This document shows positions 960 through 53,035 of a DNA stretch of 64,000 nt, in pieces. Positions within the stretch are counted from its first letter, which is position 1, and each line of letters begins with the position of its first letter. Made by a program: the position numbers and the translations under genes. Source of the DNA: Arenicola marina (lineage: Eukaryota > Annelida > Polychaeta > Arenicolidae); the NCBI GenBank assembly GCA_964019135.1, contig OZ025255.1, positions 20,375,708 through 20,439,707 of the forward strand. The letters are read 5' to 3'. The notes beneath the pieces were generated by a model. It worked only from the letters and a program-made list of their open reading frames with translations. It was not told the origin of the DNA and did not search any database.

Positions 960-1159
960 NNNNNNNNNNNNNNNNNNNNNNNNNNNNNNNNNNNNNNNNN
1001 NNNNNNNNNNNNNNNNNNNNNNNNNNNNNNNNNNNNNNNNNNNNNNNNNNNNNNNNNNNNNNNNNNNNNNNNNNNNNNNNNNNNNNNNNNNNNNNNNNNN
1101 NNNNNNNNNNNNNNNNNNNNNNNNNNNNNNNNNNNNNNNNNNNNNNNNNNNNNNNNNNN
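960..1159. other. Assembly gap (200 N)
   Basis: Exactly 200 undetermined bases, a conventional scaffold-gap size, so the true length is unknown. A C/G-rich low-complexity tract lies just upstream. Confidence 0.99.
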
Positions 1160-22721: not shown

Positions 22722-22921
22722 NNNNNNNNNNNNNNNNNNNNNNNNNNNNNNNNNNNNNNNNNNNNNNNNNNNNNNNNNNNNNNNNNNNNNNNNNNNNNNN
22801 NNNNNNNNNNNNNNNNNNNNNNNNNNNNNNNNNNNNNNNNNNNNNNNNNNNNNNNNNNNNNNNNNNNNNNNNNNNNNNNNNNNNNNNNNNNNNNNNNNNN
22901 NNNNNNNNNNNNNNNNNNNNN
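22722..22921. other. Assembly gap (200 N)
   Basis: A second run of exactly 200 N, again next to GC-rich sequence (CCCGGGG on the left). True size unknown. Confidence 0.99.
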
Positions 22922-27296: not shown

Positions 27297-29660
27297 AAGT
27301 TTGTTCTGGATCACCGTCTTTCAGTCTATTCTGGGTCACTGTATTGCAGTCTGTTCTGGATCACTGTATGACAGTCTATTCTGGGTCACTGTATTGCAGT
27401 CTGTTCTGGATCACTGTATTACAGTCTATTCTGGGTCACTGTGTTGCAGTCTGTTCTGGATCACTGTATGACAGTCTATTCTGGGTCACTGTATTGCAGT
27501 CTGTTCTGGATCACTGTATTACAGTCTGTTCTGGGTCACTGTATTAGTCTGTTCTGGATCACTGTATTACAGTCTGTTCTGGGTTACTGTATTAGTCTGT
27601 TCTGAATCACTGTATTCAGTCTGTTCTGTGTCACTGTATTAGTCTGTTCTGGATCACTGTATTACAGTCTGTTCTGGGTCACTTTATTACAGTCTGTTCT
27701 GGATCACTGTATTTCAGTCTGTTCTGGGTCACCTTATTACAGTCTGTTCCGAATCACTGTATTCAGTCTGTTCTGGATCATTGTATTACACTATGTTTTG
27801 GATCACTGTATTACAGTCTGTTCTGGATCACTGTATTACAGTCTGTTCTGGATCACTGTATTACAGTCTGTTCTGTGTCACTGTATTAGTCTGTTCTGGA
27901 TCACTGTATTACAGTCTGTTCTGGGTCACTGTATGACAGTCTGTTCTGGATCACTGTATTTCAGTCTGTACTGGGTCACCTTATTAGAGTCTGTTCCGAA
28001 TCACTGTATTCAGTCTGTTCTGGATCATTGTATTACACTATGTTTTGGATCACTGTATTACAGTCTGTTCTGGATCACTGTATTACAGTCTGTTCTGGGT
28101 CACTGTATTAGTCTGTTCTAGATCACTGTATTACAGTCTGTTCTGGGTCACTGTATTCAGTCTGTTCTGGATCATTGTATTACACTATGTTTTGGATCAC
28201 TGTCATACAGTCTGTTCTGGGTCACTGTATTAGTCTGTTCTGGATCACTGTATTACAGTCTGTTCCGAATCACTGTATTCAGTCTGTTCTGGATCATTGT
28301 ATTACACTATGTTTTGGATCACTGTCATACAGTCTGTTCTGGATCACTGTATTACAGTCTGTTCTGGGTTACTGTATTAGTCTGTTCTGGATCACTGTAT
28401 TTCAGTCTGTTCTGGTTCACTGTATGATAGTCTGTCCTGGGTCACTGTATTACAGTCTGTTCTGGATCACTGTATTACAGTTTGTTCTGGGTCACTGTAT
28501 TACAGTCTGTTCTGGATCACTGTATTACAGTCTGTTCTGGGTCACTGTATTAGTCTGTTCTGGATCACTGTATTTCAGTCTGTTCTGGGTCACTGTATTA
28601 GTCTGTTCTGGATCACTGTATTACAGTCTGTTCTGGGTTACTGTATTAGTCTGTTCTGGATCACTGTATTTCAGTCTGTTCTGGTTCACTGTATTACAGT
28701 CTGTTCTGGATCACTGTATTACAGTCTGTTCTGGGTCACTGTATTAGTCTGTTCTGGATCACTGTATTACAGTCTGTTCTGGATCACTGTATTACAGTTT
28801 GTTCTGGGTCACTCTATTACAGTCTGTTCTGGATCACTGTATTACAGTCTGTTCTGGATCCCTGTATTACAGTCTGTTCTGGATCACTGTATTACAGTCT
28901 GTTCTGTGTCACTGTATTAGTCTGTTCTGGATCACTGTATTACAGTCTGTTCTGGGTCACTGTATTACAGTCTGTTCTGGATCACTGTATTTCAGTCTGT
29001 TCTGGGTCACCTTATTACAGTCTGTTCCGAATCACTGTATTCAGTCTGTTCTGTGTCACTGTATTACAGTCTGTTCTGCATCACTGTATTACAGTCTGTT
29101 CTGGGTCACTGTATTACAGTCTGTTCTTGATCACTGTATTTCAGTCTGTTCTGGGTCACTGTATTACAGTCTGTTCTGGATCACTGTATTTCAGTCTATT
29201 CTGGATCACTACATTATAGTCCGTTCTGGATCACTGTATTTCAGTCTATTCTGGATCACTACCTTGTAGTCTGTTCTGGGTCAGGTTTTTCTGGATCACT
29301 GTATTTCAGTTTATTCTGGATCACTGTATTTCAGTATGAAATACTCTATTTAAGTCTGTTCTGGATCACTGTATTTCAGTCTATTCTGGATCACTACCTT
29401 GTAGTCTGTTCTGGATCAGGTTTGTTCTGGATCACTGTATTTCAGTTTATTCTGGATCACTGTATTTCAGTATGAAATACTCTATTTAAGTCTGTAAAGG
29501 ATCATTGTATTTCAGTTGATTCTGGGTCATTGTTTTGTATTGTATTTGTCTGTATTGTGTTACTGCGTTTTTAGTCTGTTCTTCATCGTTGTAGGCCAGT
29601 CTGTCCCAGGTCATTGTAATGATGTTGTGGTTCACTGTGTGGCAGGCTCTCCTGGATCAT
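27297..29660. repeat. 25-bp minisatellite (about 90 units), degenerate at the 3' end
   Basis: Units share CAGTCTGTTCTGGATCACTG plus TATTA; a 23-bp variant lacks AC. GGATCAC and GGGTCAC units interleave in an irregular longer-period pattern. Three units (75 bp) restore frame, giving long open frames with a 25-residue period that have no meaning as proteins. From about 29200 units become irregular, including a short duplication with GTATGAAATACTC at 29333 and 29470. Most units end in TATTACAG or TATTGCAG, a 3' splice-site-like word, but no exon anchors it. Confidence 0.9.
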
Positions 29661-30311
29661 GAATGGCGACAGTGGGAAAGAAGACAAACTGTGAATGTTC
29701 AGTAATAGCTCAAAAAAGACACATTATACAGTAGAAAACGGCCGGGTCGAAGAGCTACTCATCCTAATGTGTCAGACGGTTTATACATCCGACACCAACT
29801 TCACATATCCTCACGCCAACTTCTACAGAATGCCGAAAGCGATCAAGTTTCCCCCACCCTCATCAATTCAATCAAATTCTTTCTGGTTCCCTGATGCCCG
29901 TTCCCCGTCATCAGATCTACCACCGTCGGCTTTGTCTCCAGGTAGTCCGTGACTTCCTACCTCCCCCCCCCCCCCCCCCCACAGCATCCGGGGAATTGTC
30001 TCCTCTGACGAGGCAGTAATTTCAATGCTCGGCACGATCGACCTTCTTCCGTCTGCGCGCGCCGCTAATGGCGCGACGTCCGCCTCTCTCCCTTCGCTTG
30101 GTTTTTTTTCGCGCCATATGCATTGGAGCAGACGACAGGCGCGTTTACCGCCGCCCGGCCTGAGAGCTAAGAGGAAAACCGCATCAAACTTCACCATACG
30201 GGAAAACAACGCCGATATTGCATCAACTTTTGATTAACATACCGCGTGAACAACCAAATGCGCTTCTAGAGTAGGCGCTAAGAGCCGATGTCTGGTCGAG
30301 TTATGCTAATG
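29661..30311. other. Intronic sequence upstream of the receptor exon array
   Basis: Mixed-composition DNA with a run of about 20 C at 29960-29980. No TM4-type exon was found here, although the receptor needs one upstream ending in phase 0. The last 20 bases (TGGTCGAGTT at 30293-30302) resemble the exon segment at 32138-32147. Confidence 0.5.
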
Positions 30312-32103
30312 CACTTAATGACTTCTTATTGCCTTGCAGACGTACATATTCCGCGTTCAGAAAGGCCCCTTTGTGGTCGAGTTCTACCAGTGCGTCACTG
30401 AATGCCTTGTTATTGCCTTGCAGACGTACATATTCCGCGTTCAGAGAGGCTCCTTTGTGGTCGAGTTCTACCAGTGCGTCACTGAATGCCTTGTTATTGC
30501 CTTGCAGACGTACATATTCTGCGTTCAGAGAGGCCCCTTTGTGATCGAGTTCTACCAGTGCGTCACTGAATGCCTTATTATTGCCTTGCAGACGTACATA
30601 TTCCGCGTTCAGAGAGGCCCCTTTGTGATCGAGTTCTACCAGTGAGTCACTGAATGCCTTATTATTGCCTTGCAGACGTACATATTCCGCGTTCAGAGAG
30701 GCCCCTTTGTGATCGAGTTCTACCAGTGCGTCACTGAATGCCTTATTATTGCCTTGCAGACGTACATATTCCGCGTTCAGAGAGGCCCCTTTGTGATCGA
30801 GTTCTACCAGTGCGTCACTGAATGCCTTATTATTGCCTTGCAGACGTACATATTCCGCGTTCAGAGAGGCTCCTTTGTGGTCGAGTTCTACCAGTGCGTC
30901 ACTGAATGCCTTATTATTGCCTTGCAGACGTACATATTCCGCGTTCAGAGAGGCCCCTTTGTGATCGAGTTCTACCAGTGCGTCACTGAATGCCTTATTA
31001 TTGCCTTGCAGACGTACATATTCCGCGTTCAGAGAGGCTCCTTTGTGGTCGAGTTCTACCAGTGCGTCACTGAATGCCTTATTATTGCCTTGCAGACGTA
31101 CATATTCCGCGTTCAGAGAGGCCCCTTTGTGATCGAGTTCTACCAGTGCGTCACTGAATGCCTTATTATTGCCTTGCAGACGTACATATTCCGCGTTCAG
31201 AGAGGCTCCTTTGTGGTCGAGTTCTACCAGTGCGTCACTGAATGCCTTATTATTGCCTTGCAGACGTACATATTCCGCGTTCAGAGAGGCTCCTTTGTGA
31301 TCGAGTTCTACCAGTGCGTCACTGAATGCCTTATTATTGCCTTGCAGACGTACATATTCCGCGTTCAGAGAGGCCCCTTTGTGATCGAGTTCTACCAGTG
31401 CGTCACTGAATGCCTTATTATTGCCTTGCAGACGTACATATTCCGCGTTCAGAGAGGCTCCTTTGTGGTCGAGTTCTACCAGTGCGTCACTGAATGCCTT
31501 ATTATTGCCTTGCAGACGTACATATTCCGCGTTCAGAGAGGCCCCTTTGTGATCGAGTTCTACCAGTGCGTCACTGAATGCCTTATTATTGCCTTGCAGA
31601 CGTACATATTCCGCGTTCAGAGAGGCTCCTTTGTGGTCGAGTTCTACCAGTGCGTCACTGAATGTCTTATTATTGCCTTGCAGACGTACATATTCCGCGT
31701 TCAGAGAGGCCCCTTTGTGATCGAGTTCTACCAGTGCGTCACTGAATGCCTTATTATTGCCTTGCAGACGTACATATTCCGCGTTCAGAGAGGCTCCTTT
31801 GTGGTCGAGTTCTACCAGTGCGTCACTGAATGCCTTATTATTGCCTTGCAGACGTACATATTCCGCGTTCAGAGAGGCCCCTTTGTGATCGAGTTCTACC
31901 AGTGCGTCACTGAATGCCTTATTATTGCCTTGCAGACGTACATATTCCGCGTTCAGAGAGGCCCCTTTGTGATCGAGTTCTACCAGTGCGTCACTGAATG
32001 CCTTATTATTGCCTTGCAGACGTACATATTCTGCGTTCAGAAAGGCCCCTTTGTGATCGAGTTCTACCAGTGAGTCACTGAATGTCTTGTCATTGCCTTG
32101 CAG
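30312..32103 (+). repeat. 84-bp tandem array duplicating the receptor intron-exon boundary (21 units)
   Basis: TTGCCTTGCAG followed by ACGTACATATTC occurs 22 times at exact 84-bp steps: 30340, 30424 and so on to 32020, and finally the authentic exon at 32104. Each unit holds 28 bases of intron end and 56 bases of exon start. Because 84 is a multiple of 3, units read on in the receptor frame as TYIFRVQRG(P/S)FV(I/V)E then FYQCVTECLIIALQ. Units 5-21 form one frame of 467 codons. Units 4 and 21 carry CCAGTGAGTC instead of CCAGTGCGTC, which makes an in-frame TGA and a GTGAGT donor-like word. P-I and S-V units alternate over much of the array, a 168-bp higher-order period. Unit identity is very high, so the array is young or actively homogenised. 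Confidence 0.95.
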
Positions 32104-32311
32104 ACGTACATATTCCGCGTTCAGAGAGGCCCCTTTGTGGTCGAGTTCTACCAGTGCGTCACTTATGGCGCCTACACCTCCAAGTGGCAGGAACAGCTCT
32201 ACACCTGCGTCTCCGTCCTCCTCATGTTCGTCATCCCCCTCGTCACCATGGTTACCGCATATATGCTCATCTTCTGTACCATTGCCAAAAAGTCACGTGA
32301 TCTTCAACGAG
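32104..32311 (+). CDS. GnRH/AKH/corazonin-type receptor, exon with ECL2 and TM5
   Basis: Internal exon of a class A GPCR for a GnRH-superfamily neuropeptide; members sit in the plasma membrane and usually couple to Gq. It starts after TTGCCTTGCAG (phase 0) and ends at ACGAG|GTAGGT (phase 1). The 69 codons read TYIFRVQRGPFVVEFYQCVT at the start: the end of TM4 and extracellular loop 2, where QCVT carries the cysteine that bonds to TM3 in this family. Then come W-QEQLYT and the TM5 segment VLLMFVIPLVTMVTAYMLIF, ending in KKSRDLQR of loop 3. The QCVT-x-G-x(5)-W-QEQLYT pattern is that of invertebrate GnRH/AKH/corazonin receptors; which subfamily I cannot say. Its 5' edge has been copied 21 times upstream (30312-32103). 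Confidence 0.9.
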
Positions 32312-32974
32312 GTAGGTGTTCGTTTGTGTGTTGTACCTTCATGTTATTATTACGTGATTGTTCATAGAAATAAAAAAATTCCCCAACTTTGCATAATGAG
32401 AAAAGAAGCCAACTTAATAGTATTTTGTTACACCCTAAACTCAAAGAAGTCTATTTACGATAGAGACGCGTCTGATGATGAGAGTCCAACAAATTTGATT
32501 TTGTTGCGGCAGTATCATGCCCCACCGAAGCGAAGATCAATGGAACAAAAAAACATTATATCACGTGCCCCAGGGGCGACGCCGATTGGTTGGCCTAACG
32601 CCACGCAGGAACGCACGTGTCCAATAGCAGAAAGTAGAGTGTGCCTTATTCCCGGCGAAGACCCGTGTTAATTTTTAAGTTTAATCTGATAGCTCAGCGG
32701 CCTAAAGCTCCAGACAGGCCATTACTGTCTATTAACCGCGGTGACTGTGGCCCCTTTCTATATCCTATTCCCGTAAGTGTAAAGGAAATCTGTGAGAACA
32801 TACTGCGCATTTAACGTTAATGGATTGGCCAGAAAGAACACAGCCATGGCCACCAGATGGCTCCACCATCGCGACGCAAACGCCGGAAGCAGCATAAGTA
32901 GGATTTTGACACCACTGCAGCTCCGATTCTATGTCTGCTGTTGGTTTTGGAATGAGCAGTCCACGGGTTGGAAC

Positions 32975-34421: not shown

Positions 34422-34707
34422 AAGCTGAGAGTGCCAACCAAGAGATGTTGTCTCGAGGTCCCGTTAGGGGGCAGCTCTTTCGCAAGGCGAAGGTGAAGTC
34501 ACTGCGCATGACCGCTCTGATCGTAGCGGCTTTCATCGTCTGCTGGACGCCTTACTACATCGTCTTCATAATCCACACGTACTTCGGCCTCCATAGTAAG
34601 GAGGATGATCGCAAGTTCATCTGGATATTCTTCTTCGGGATGGCCAACTCCATGTTTAACCCCATGATCTACGGCGCCTTCCAGATCTGCAAGAAACGGC
34701 GGCGAAG
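34422..34707 (+). CDS. GnRH/AKH/corazonin-type receptor, exon with ICL3, TM6 and TM7
   Basis: Receptor exon that follows 32104-32311 in frame (the phase 1 G plus AA makes Glu). It ends at CGAAG|GTAGGA in phase 2. Loop 3 is short and basic with FRKAKVKSLRMT, the junction typical of the GnRH/AKH/corazonin group. TM6 is TALIVAAFIVCWTPYYIVFI with the CWxPY toggle motif. Extracellular loop 3 is HTYFGLHSKEDDRKF. TM7 is WIFFFGMANSMFNPMIYGAF with NPxxY present as NPMIY. It closes with the basic QICKKRRR before the tail. All class A hallmarks expected here are intact and codons are strongly GC-ending, unlike flanking DNA. Confidence 0.93.
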
Positions 34708-35586
34708 GTAGGAAGCGCTTTCAGGAGTGGAGTAATTGTAGATTGATATAACTATAGCATAGGCAGATTGAACGTCTATTTTAATGTTGCGACATTAGGG
34801 TTAAATCATATGTGGCATAAGTTATAATAAGTTCGGGATACAAATGATGCAGTTCGGAATACAAATGAAAAAAAAAATCGGGATACGATAAGTTCGGGAT
34901 ACAAATGATGCAAATGATGCATGCCTCAGGTTATGACCTGAGACACGGTCATAATGGATTTGGAAATACTTAGTCGATACATTATAACATGCACAGGCTG
35001 ATATTTACTTTAAATTAACTTAAAGTTGTTCAATAAATAATTTCCAAGCATCTCAAATAACGGGTAAATTGGCTAATATAATAATAACAAAATTCTAACG
35101 ACCACCAAACGCATACAGCTTTCTTACACAGGGTGGGTGATGCTAGAAAATTAGAAAAACCTAAATTTATGCCCTAGCTCGGACACCGGTATCTAGCACC
35201 TGTGTCCACTGGGGTAGGCATGCATATGTATGTAAAGGACCGTTCCCGCTCCCCTTGGAACGTGTGTCGCGAGGCATCTAATCCTGGAATTGTTGTGGCA
35301 ACAGGCTGGCCATCGGGATTATTTTGATGCTTTAACTGCCATAGTCACGACGCGGCTGGATAAAGCGGGAGGTATGGCCTTGGTTATACGACCCGGAAAT
35401 GGCCCTAATTACCTCAACTGCCATACTTCATTAAAGTCAGATATTATGTAGCAGGTGCCAACTGTCATACAAATATGGTCTAATAGTCTCGGGGTGGAAT
35501 GTGTCACGGGATGGAGCGAGAGTGGAAGGGGGAGGTGGGGGGGGGGGGGGGTAGACGATGTTCCACGGTTACATGAGACCGGTTGA

Positions 35587-51556: not shown

Positions 51557-51628
51557 ATGGCACGTCCCCGTTGCTACGTGCACAGTCAGGTGCTATATGG
51601 TTTCAATCATTCGCCATGCCTCACAAAG
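51557..51628 (+). CDS. Candidate exon ending at the first donor of the 40-bp array
   Basis: An ATG at 51557 opens 24 codons, MARPRCYVHSQVLYGFNHSP then CLTK, ending exactly at AAAG|GTAAGT in phase 0. The frame stays open upstream for another ten codons. Alternatively the ATG at 51616 gives MPHK and phase 1. I recognise neither. The donor and the last 20 or so exon bases are what the following minisatellite multiplies, which is why I think a real exon edge lies here. Confidence 0.3.
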
Positions 51629-53035
51629 GTAAGTCGGTCAGGATATCTTTTCGCTAGGCGTCAAACAGGTAAGTCAGTCAGGATATGTTTTCGCTAGGCG
51701 TCAAAAAGGTAAGTCGGTCAGGAAATATTTTCGCCATGCCTCCCAAAGGTAAGTCGGTGAGGAAATCATTTTGCCATGCCTCCCTAAGGTAAGTCGGTCA
51801 GGACATTTTTTCGCCAGGTTTCACAAAGGTAAGTCGACCAGAGGATCATTTCCCCATGCCTCACAAAGGTAGGTCGGTCAGGAAATCATTTCGTCGTGCC
51901 TCACAAAGGTAACTCTGCCAAGAAATTATTTTGCCAGGCTTCACAAAGGTAAGTCTCTCAGAAAATCATGTTGCCATGTCTCACAAAGGTAAGTCGATGA
52001 AGAGATCTTTTCACCATGCCTCACAAAATTAAGTCGATAAGGATCCTTTCGCTATGCTTCCCATAGGTAAGTTTGTCAGGGAATCATTTCGCCACGTCTC
52101 ACAAAGGTAAGTCGGTCAGAATATCATTCGCCATGCCTCCCAAAGGTAACTCTGTCAGGAAATCTTTTTGCCAGGCCTCAAAAAGGTAAGTCGACCAGGA
52201 GCTCATTTCGCCATGCCTCACAAAGGTAATTCTGTCAGGAAATCATTTCGCCATGCCTCACAAAGGTAATTCTGTCAGGAAATCATTTCGCCACGCCTCA
52301 CAAATGTAAGTCTGTCAGGAAATCATTTTGCCACGCCTCAAAGGTAATTCTGTCAGGAAATCATTTCGCCATGCCTCCCAAAGGTAATTCTGTCAGGAAA
52401 TCATTTCGCCAGGCCTCACAAATGTAAGTCTGTCAGGAAATCATTTCGCCACCTCACAAAAATAAGTATGTCAGGAAATCATTTCGCCACGCCTCACAAA
52501 GGTAAGCCTGTCAGGAAATCATTTCGCCACGCCTCACAAAGGTAAGTCTGTCAGAAAATAATTATTTCGCCATGCCTCCCAAAGGTAATTCTGTCAGGAA
52601 ATCATTTCGCCATGCATCACAAATGTAAGTCTGTCAGGAGATCATTTCGCCACGCCTCACAAAGGTAAGTCTGTCAGGAAATCATTTCGCCACGCCTCAC
52701 AAAGGTAAGTCTGTCAGGAAATCATTTCGCCACGCCTCACAAATGTAAGTCTGTCAGGAAATCATTTCGCCACGCCTCACAAAGGTAAGTCTGTCAGGAA
52801 ATCATTTCGCCACGCCTCACAAAGGTAAGTCTGTCAGGAAATCATTTCGCCACGCCTCACAAATGTAAGTCTGTCAGGAAATCATTTTGCCACGCCTCAA
52901 AGGTAAGTCTGTCAAGAAATCATTTCGCCATGCCTCACAAATGTAAGTTTGTCAGGGAATCATTTTGCCACGCCTCAAAGGTAAGTCTGTCAGGAAATCA
53001 TTTCGCCATGCCTCACAAAGGTAAGTGTGTTATGT
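51600..53035 (+). repeat. 40-bp minisatellite repeating a consensus 5' splice site (about 36 units)
   Basis: Units read GGTAAGTCTGTCAGGAAATC then ATTTCGCCACGCCTCACAAA. Most units therefore carry CAAAG|GTAAGT, essentially the ideal 5' splice site; variants include GTAATT, GTAACT and TGTAAGT. The first donor is at 51629 and the last at 53021. Units near the 5' end are more divergent (GCCATGCC, GTCGGTC) and those from 52600 on are nearly identical, so recent expansion happened at the 3' side. ATG occurs in many units just before the donor (ATGCCTCACAAAG). Confidence 0.93.

Follow-up and report, generated by a model that had tools for sequence, protein, structure and literature searches.

Minisatellites spanning the splice sites at both ends of a long receptor intron in a likely annelid genome

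The receptor gene

The window, a stretch of 64,000 nucleotides (C8:20375708-20439707), carries exons 2 and 3 of a predicted seven-transmembrane (7TM) class A receptor of the GnRH/AKH/corazonin type. The exon encoding TM1-4 lies 40 kb to the left of the window (Table 1), and none was found on the plus strand of the window to the left of the tandem array described below. Joined at PQ|GT and 32104, and with the start codon assumed, the three exons encode 385 residues without a stop, separated by an intron 1 of 72,202 bp and an intron 2 of 2,110 bp. The joined protein matches Pfam 7tm_1 with an E-value of 7.3e-48, GnRH receptor chains take the first three places among the solved-structure matches of exons 2 and 3 (E 9.1e-21 to 7e-14), and the named relatives are mostly GnRH receptors or GnRH receptor-like proteins, with some corazonin or AKH receptors. 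A sequence-only reading of the same DNA had described a tandemly amplified acceptor and coding-exon start of such a receptor, and these matches bear out the receptor type. Two runs of exactly 200 N (window 960-1159 and 22722-22921) are probably placeholder gaps.

The receptor is 71% identical to a Capitella teleta protein (over 305 residues), 63% to a chiton protein, 58% to an Owenia protein and 42% to P0129, the single Branchiostoma protein found; over single exons, identities of 75 and 79% occur with further records. A tree of 28 out of 141 proteins groups the receptor with Capitella and Owenia (80/91, not starred) and has its Branchiostoma row flagged as a long branch, and a tree of the C-terminal half, with 31 out of 53 proteins, recovers the same group together with the brachiopod Lingula (82/32). 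The receptor sequence thus points to a likely annelid host, and the earlier attribution to amphioxus (Branchiostoma) is very likely wrong, as judged against one Branchiostoma protein. The position of intron 1 fits one that is shared with the relatives, as read from predicted proteins rather than from DNA: seven of nine exon-1 rows (P0132, P0133, P0135, P0136, P0137, P0139 and P0140) continue from PQ into V, the residue that GTN would encode; for the other two (P0134 and P0138) the reading covers the final 30 residues, outside which the junction falls. Across the junction, P0047 has LQ|SYIF.

Table 1. Features of the receptor locus and exon-edge arrays found elsewhere in the genome. Plain numbers are window positions; the prefix C8 marks contig positions.
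Feature	Position	Strand	Basis
Receptor exon 1 (TM1-4)	C8:20335186-20335617	same strand	Genome search with Capitella relative, 74% identical
Donor array, 27 bp x 62.4	C8:20335595-20337252		TRF
Possible decayed partial unit preceding unit 1, in register (TGGTCGAGTT...)	30293..30311	+	Identical over 10 bp to the exon at 32138
Acceptor-side splice-site minisatellite, 22 units of 84 bp	30312..32163	+	TRF, 22 acceptors spaced 84
Exon-side base of the most upstream acceptor copy	30340	+	Acceptor motif positions
In-frame TGA, unit 4; closes acceptors 1-4	30643..30645	+	Frame reading
In-frame TGA, unit 21; closes acceptors 5-21	32071..32073	+	Frame reading
Receptor exon 2 (end of TM4, ECL2, TM5), 208 nt, phase 0 to phase 1, donor GTAGGT; genuine copy is the last array unit	32104..32311	+	Frame, protein ends of relatives
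Receptor exon 3 (TM6, TM7, stop TAG)	34422..34711	+	7tm_1 match
L045, myosin-head exon, donor side, 62 bp x 25	G000:C12		94% matches; 49 nt of coding exon + GTAGGC copied
L052, donor side, 37 bp x 6.6			Myosin-head survey
L065, donor side, 100 bp x 15			Myosin-head survey
L066, donor side, 126 bp x 2.9			Myosin-head survey

Arrays at both ends of intron 1

The 3′ end of intron 1 and the beginning of exon 2 are repeated in tandem. TRF reports a period of 84 with 22.0 copies, 97% matches and 0% indels, and the window contains 22 copies of the acceptor motif TTGCCTTGCAG, whose exon-side base moves from the first to the last copy in 21 steps of exactly 84; both routes confirm the evenly spaced repeats, the last of them the true exon, that the first reading had noticed. 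Each unit comprises 28 nt of intron end and 56 nt of exon start and so spans the exon-intron boundary, and the motif is kept in 22 of 22 units. The suspected kinship with mirage minisatellites, in which splice signals are retained, holds on both counts. Pairwise identity among the units ranges from 91.7 to 100% with a mean of 97.3%, and the last 12 intron bases are common to all 22 acceptors, so that none of the upstream copies is visibly weakened. An exact 23-mer across the acceptor has 22 matches in the 867-Mb assembly, all at the receptor locus; the count refers to exact matches in a single assembly, which diverged copies would escape. On the minus strand, an antisense open frame of 663 aa (30301-32292) extends from one end of the array to the other, as follows mechanically from an 84-bp unit that has no stop in that frame.

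To the left of unit 1, a degenerate unit in register with the array is suggestive only: an equally good candidate arises in 3 of 2000 shuffles and in 4 of 974 genomic controls, and an unanchored local alignment of this flank, taken alone, scores like the shuffles.

A second array occupies the far end of the intron, with the exon-1 donor CTGCCCCAG|GTAGGT as its first unit; it lies beyond the window and so escaped the first reading. Its 27-bp unit, TCAGTCTGCCCCAG|GTATGTGTCTGGA, joins 14 nt of exon to 13 nt of intron and again spans the boundary. The pattern YHAG|GTRKKT has 38 matches in the array, the genuine donor counted. In units 2 and 3, AT replaces GT, and unit 4 ends in CCC TAG in frame, the first stop, so that each further donor copy that matches the pattern sits behind an in-frame stop; among these copies, only the outermost is predicted to give an open product. 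In three of four fetched paralogs (L034, L035 and L036) GT stands at the same place and no array is found there; in the fourth (L037) the match stopped short of the donor position. A single intron of 72,202 bp thus carries splice-site-straddling arrays at both ends, with 22 acceptor and about 62 donor copies.

Stops in the acceptor array

An array of this kind could be a coding, frame-preserving repeat, in which the use of upstream acceptors would add 28-residue segments to ECL2 and yield receptors longer by multiples of 28 residues, as was proposed from the letters alone. Eighty-four nucleotides are indeed 28 codons, the consensus unit is open in frame and every acceptor has its motif. While this arithmetic stands, the frame does not: units 4 and 21 share the same C-to-A change, which turns TGC into TGA at the ECL2 cysteine, and owing to these two stops all 21 upstream acceptors are closed. 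The donor at 32312 is reached in an open frame only from acceptor 22, and among the copied acceptors 32104 alone gives the receptor. The changes between units likewise look unconstrained, since the eight variable sites comprise five missense, one nonsense and two silent changes, that is 25% silent compared with 24% expected without constraint; the sites as read fit an absence of coding constraint. An open frame throughout, as in a coding VNTR, is interrupted by the TGA codons at 30643 and 32071, and this closure implies that in this allele the array is no coding repeat. Units of 62, 37 and 100 bp in other exon-edge arrays are not multiples of three, hence frame is not generally kept in such arrays of this genome. 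The ladder of extra ECL2 segments is refuted for this allele by the two TGA units, and we regard the reading as very improbable. No protein with the repeated peptide was found at E <= 0.001 among 7997 candidates scored. A figure of 573 aa for the open frame of exon 2, returned by the genome search, spans the TGA at 32071 and was discarded as no open frame.

The change to TGA in units 4 and 21 also creates CCA|GTGAGT, a candidate donor, the use of which would possibly leave a 50-nt exon and a frame shift. Alternative sites leading to a full-length open product, as in the human IFI6 gene, are not found among the sites read here, in that the 21 upstream acceptors and the further matching donor copies are all closed. 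Exon fragments and stops are frequent in the arrays and might be taken as the marks of a dead receptor gene, yet exons 1-3 join into the stop-free 385-aa protein with its 71% identity to Capitella; given this intact three-exon frame we reject a pseudogene and leave that reading a next to negligible probability.

History of the acceptor array

Unit differences are ordered along the array. Two common variable sites aside, 14 of the 15 differences from the consensus fall in units 1-4, 21 and 22, and one in units 5-20. Units 5-20, leaving out the hybrid unit 12, show two common types in alternation: of 14 neighbours, 12 are of unlike type (permutation p 0.005, for a stretch picked after the pattern had been seen), and the alternation changes phase near unit 12. 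The picture is one of an array that would have grown from the middle by two-unit steps while its edges decayed. A CACTTA microhomology between the intron at 30312 and the exon at 32160 might account for the first 84-bp duplication, but shared 6-mers are common in shuffles; moreover, if a decayed unit does precede unit 1, the duplication may first have broken elsewhere than at today's edge.

The same order bears on the possibility that one exon start was falsely multiplied during assembly. Such arrays are hard to assemble and the window contains two 200-N gaps; however, neither gap lies inside the array, the unit differences are ordered, the edges are unlike the middle, and similar arrays are present elsewhere in the assembly and in another phylum. 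An artefact is accordingly highly unlikely in our estimation, the exact copy numbers being those of one assembly.

Exon-edge arrays in the genome

Tandem arrays make up 23% of the window, 34% of a 50-kb stretch with exon 1 and the initial 39 kb of intron 1, and 14% of the sequence at 17 other receptor loci. In the array at 51605-53030 (40 bp, about 36 copies), the unit contains AAAG|GTAAGT; of the 28 near-perfect donor matches in the window (CAGGTAAGT, at most one mismatch; 12.3 expected), 19 fall within this array. An open stretch from the ATG at 51557 runs into its first unit, and no Pfam family was found beside it on the plus strand; it is likely another donor-side array. A Pfam match to a herpesvirus glycoprotein family probably reflects repeat DNA. 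In the same intron as the acceptor array, 25-bp arrays at 27298-29529, the longest of about 80 copies, have a consensus that reads CTGTATTTCAG or CTGTATTACAG across the join and is acceptor-like; no exon was found beside them. The segment 48452-48679, reading RNELSLAEKVSLIE, presumably resembles a transposase DNA-binding domain.

Myosin-head exons provided a survey of other genes, for which the best 30 of 76 matches were taken as loci and arrays were accepted at a TRF score of at least 50, a period of at least 9 and an extension of at least 40 bp beyond the match; exon ends are the ends of the HMM match and not verified exon ends. Donor-straddling arrays that include the exon end and GT were found at 4 of the 30 loci (Table 1) and acceptor-straddling arrays at 0 of 30, numbers too small for a claim of side bias. 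Left out of the count were arrays that begin just past the donor (L040, 17 bp x 88, and L059, 16 bp x 3.3), those 21 and 18 bp off (L041 and L051, respectively) and L062, where the match crosses a stop. None of the further donor copies read at L045, L065 and L066 (up to eight per locus) is open, whereas six of seven copies at L052 lack a stop. The units of the six exon-edge arrays in the genome are mixed in length, three being multiples of three (84, 27 and 126) and three not (62, 37 and 100), and neither frame-keeping nor closure is a rule. Overall, the survey suggests that exon-edge arrays are not rare in this genome, and L045 offers a second strong example for bench work.

Proposed origin and effect on splicing

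The locus is quite probably explained by mirage minisatellites at both ends of the receptor intron, with splicing at the exon-proximal sites, and the arrays are most likely intronic by-products of a very active process of minisatellite birth. Each array would have originated by tandem duplication over an exon-intron boundary, with unequal exchange or slippage then adding units, often two at a time. Selection would keep only the outermost exon copy and leave the remaining units to drift as intron. Given the great length of the intron, the spliceosome is predicted to pair the sites that lie closest across each exon, joining the donor at C8:20335609 to the acceptor at 32104. Use of an upstream acceptor, or of a further donor that keeps GT, would cut the receptor short around TM4/ECL2 and the mRNA would probably decay; the arrays would then at most leak and be no source of longer receptors.

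Published work, as far as the excerpted accounts go, is consistent with this pairing. With long flanking introns, splicing favours the sites nearest to each other across the exon (Carranza et al. 2022, PMC9225289). Where acceptors are separated by 20 nt or more, the upstream one is chosen preferentially overall, significantly less so between long introns (Carranza et al. 2022, PMC9225289); the study thus lends support to 32104, weaker on the acceptor side, without being proof. The intact signals of the upstream acceptors, none visibly weakened, count against the predicted choice. In amphioxus mirages, RT-PCR found splicing undisturbed (PMC3087553).

Alternatively, the copies could act as regulatory decoys, extra sites that compete for the spliceosome, slow the removal of the intron or send a share of the transcript into truncated, degraded mRNA, with array length tuning the receptor level. 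Many intact consensus sites at both ends of the intron and the stops that end the alternative products read at the receptor gene fit such a role; against it stand the lack of constraint in the units and the similar arrays at 4 of 30 myosin exon loci, which suggest a by-product of wide occurrence and no device peculiar to the receptor, and we consider decoys unlikely. A wider variant, in which splice-site minisatellites form a genome-wide annelid class and the two receptor arrays are a length-variable splicing rheostat that sets dose between individuals or cells, strikes us as equally doubtful; if it were true, array size would set the share of transcripts lost to closed, truncated products.

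Whichever effect they have, an intron with 38 motif-matching donors and 22 acceptors is a natural test of spliceosome choice among near-identical sites, and with exon-edge arrays apparently not rare, as judged by the myosin loci, their cost, turnover and part in intron change can be studied genome-wide.

Comparison with known systems

According to the excerpted reports cited in this section, mirage minisatellites are known from the amphioxus genes Adh3, the globins BflGb6 and BflGb9, and PGBD5 (PMC3087553, PMC3902484). As in these genes, the receptor arrays are tandem units across an exon-intron boundary with AG or GT copied, and their edges escape homogenization (PMC3087553, PMC3902484). BflGb6 is the closest parallel to the acceptor array in side and content: its repeats, 6 and 3 units in two haplotypes, consist of the 3′ end of an intron and the 5′ part of exon 2, in units of 150-160 bp (PMC3087553). 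The sequence-only reading had held an acceptor-side, coding version to be undescribed, and BflGb6 shows that the kind was already known. The receptor intron departs from amphioxus in its 22 and about 62 units (3 and 6 in BflGb6, 2-7 in PGBD5; PMC3087553, PMC3902484), in having arrays at both ends of one intron, in a likely annelid, and in an acceptor array with an alternating two-unit pattern and in-frame stops that close all upstream acceptors. Tandem duplication has also been put forward as a model of intron gain (PMC3087553); the receptor intron has a position shared with its relatives, so no intron gain is shown.

Human genes offer further parallels. In IFI6 (6-16; Turri et al. 1995), a minisatellite likewise repeats the donor at the edge of a coding exon, but there two downstream repeat units act as donors and three mRNAs result (PMC4526556), whereas the receptor alternatives are closed by stops and predicted to be non-productive. 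Internal tandem repeats at human exon-intron boundaries, with an average of four 30-bp units, can turn intronic and activate cryptic sites, as exon-edge repeats might here (PMC2812944). Among annelids, an earthworm metallothionein gene has a minisatellite-laden intron and exon-4 duplications absent from the transcript, although no splice-site-spanning array is described in the excerpted report (PMC12783039). A literature search that was not aimed at both-end cases and covered few subscription papers returned no annelid mirage case and no intron with arrays at both ends. The receptor locus extends the amphioxus kind of splice-site minisatellite to a likely annelid, and to both ends of one intron.
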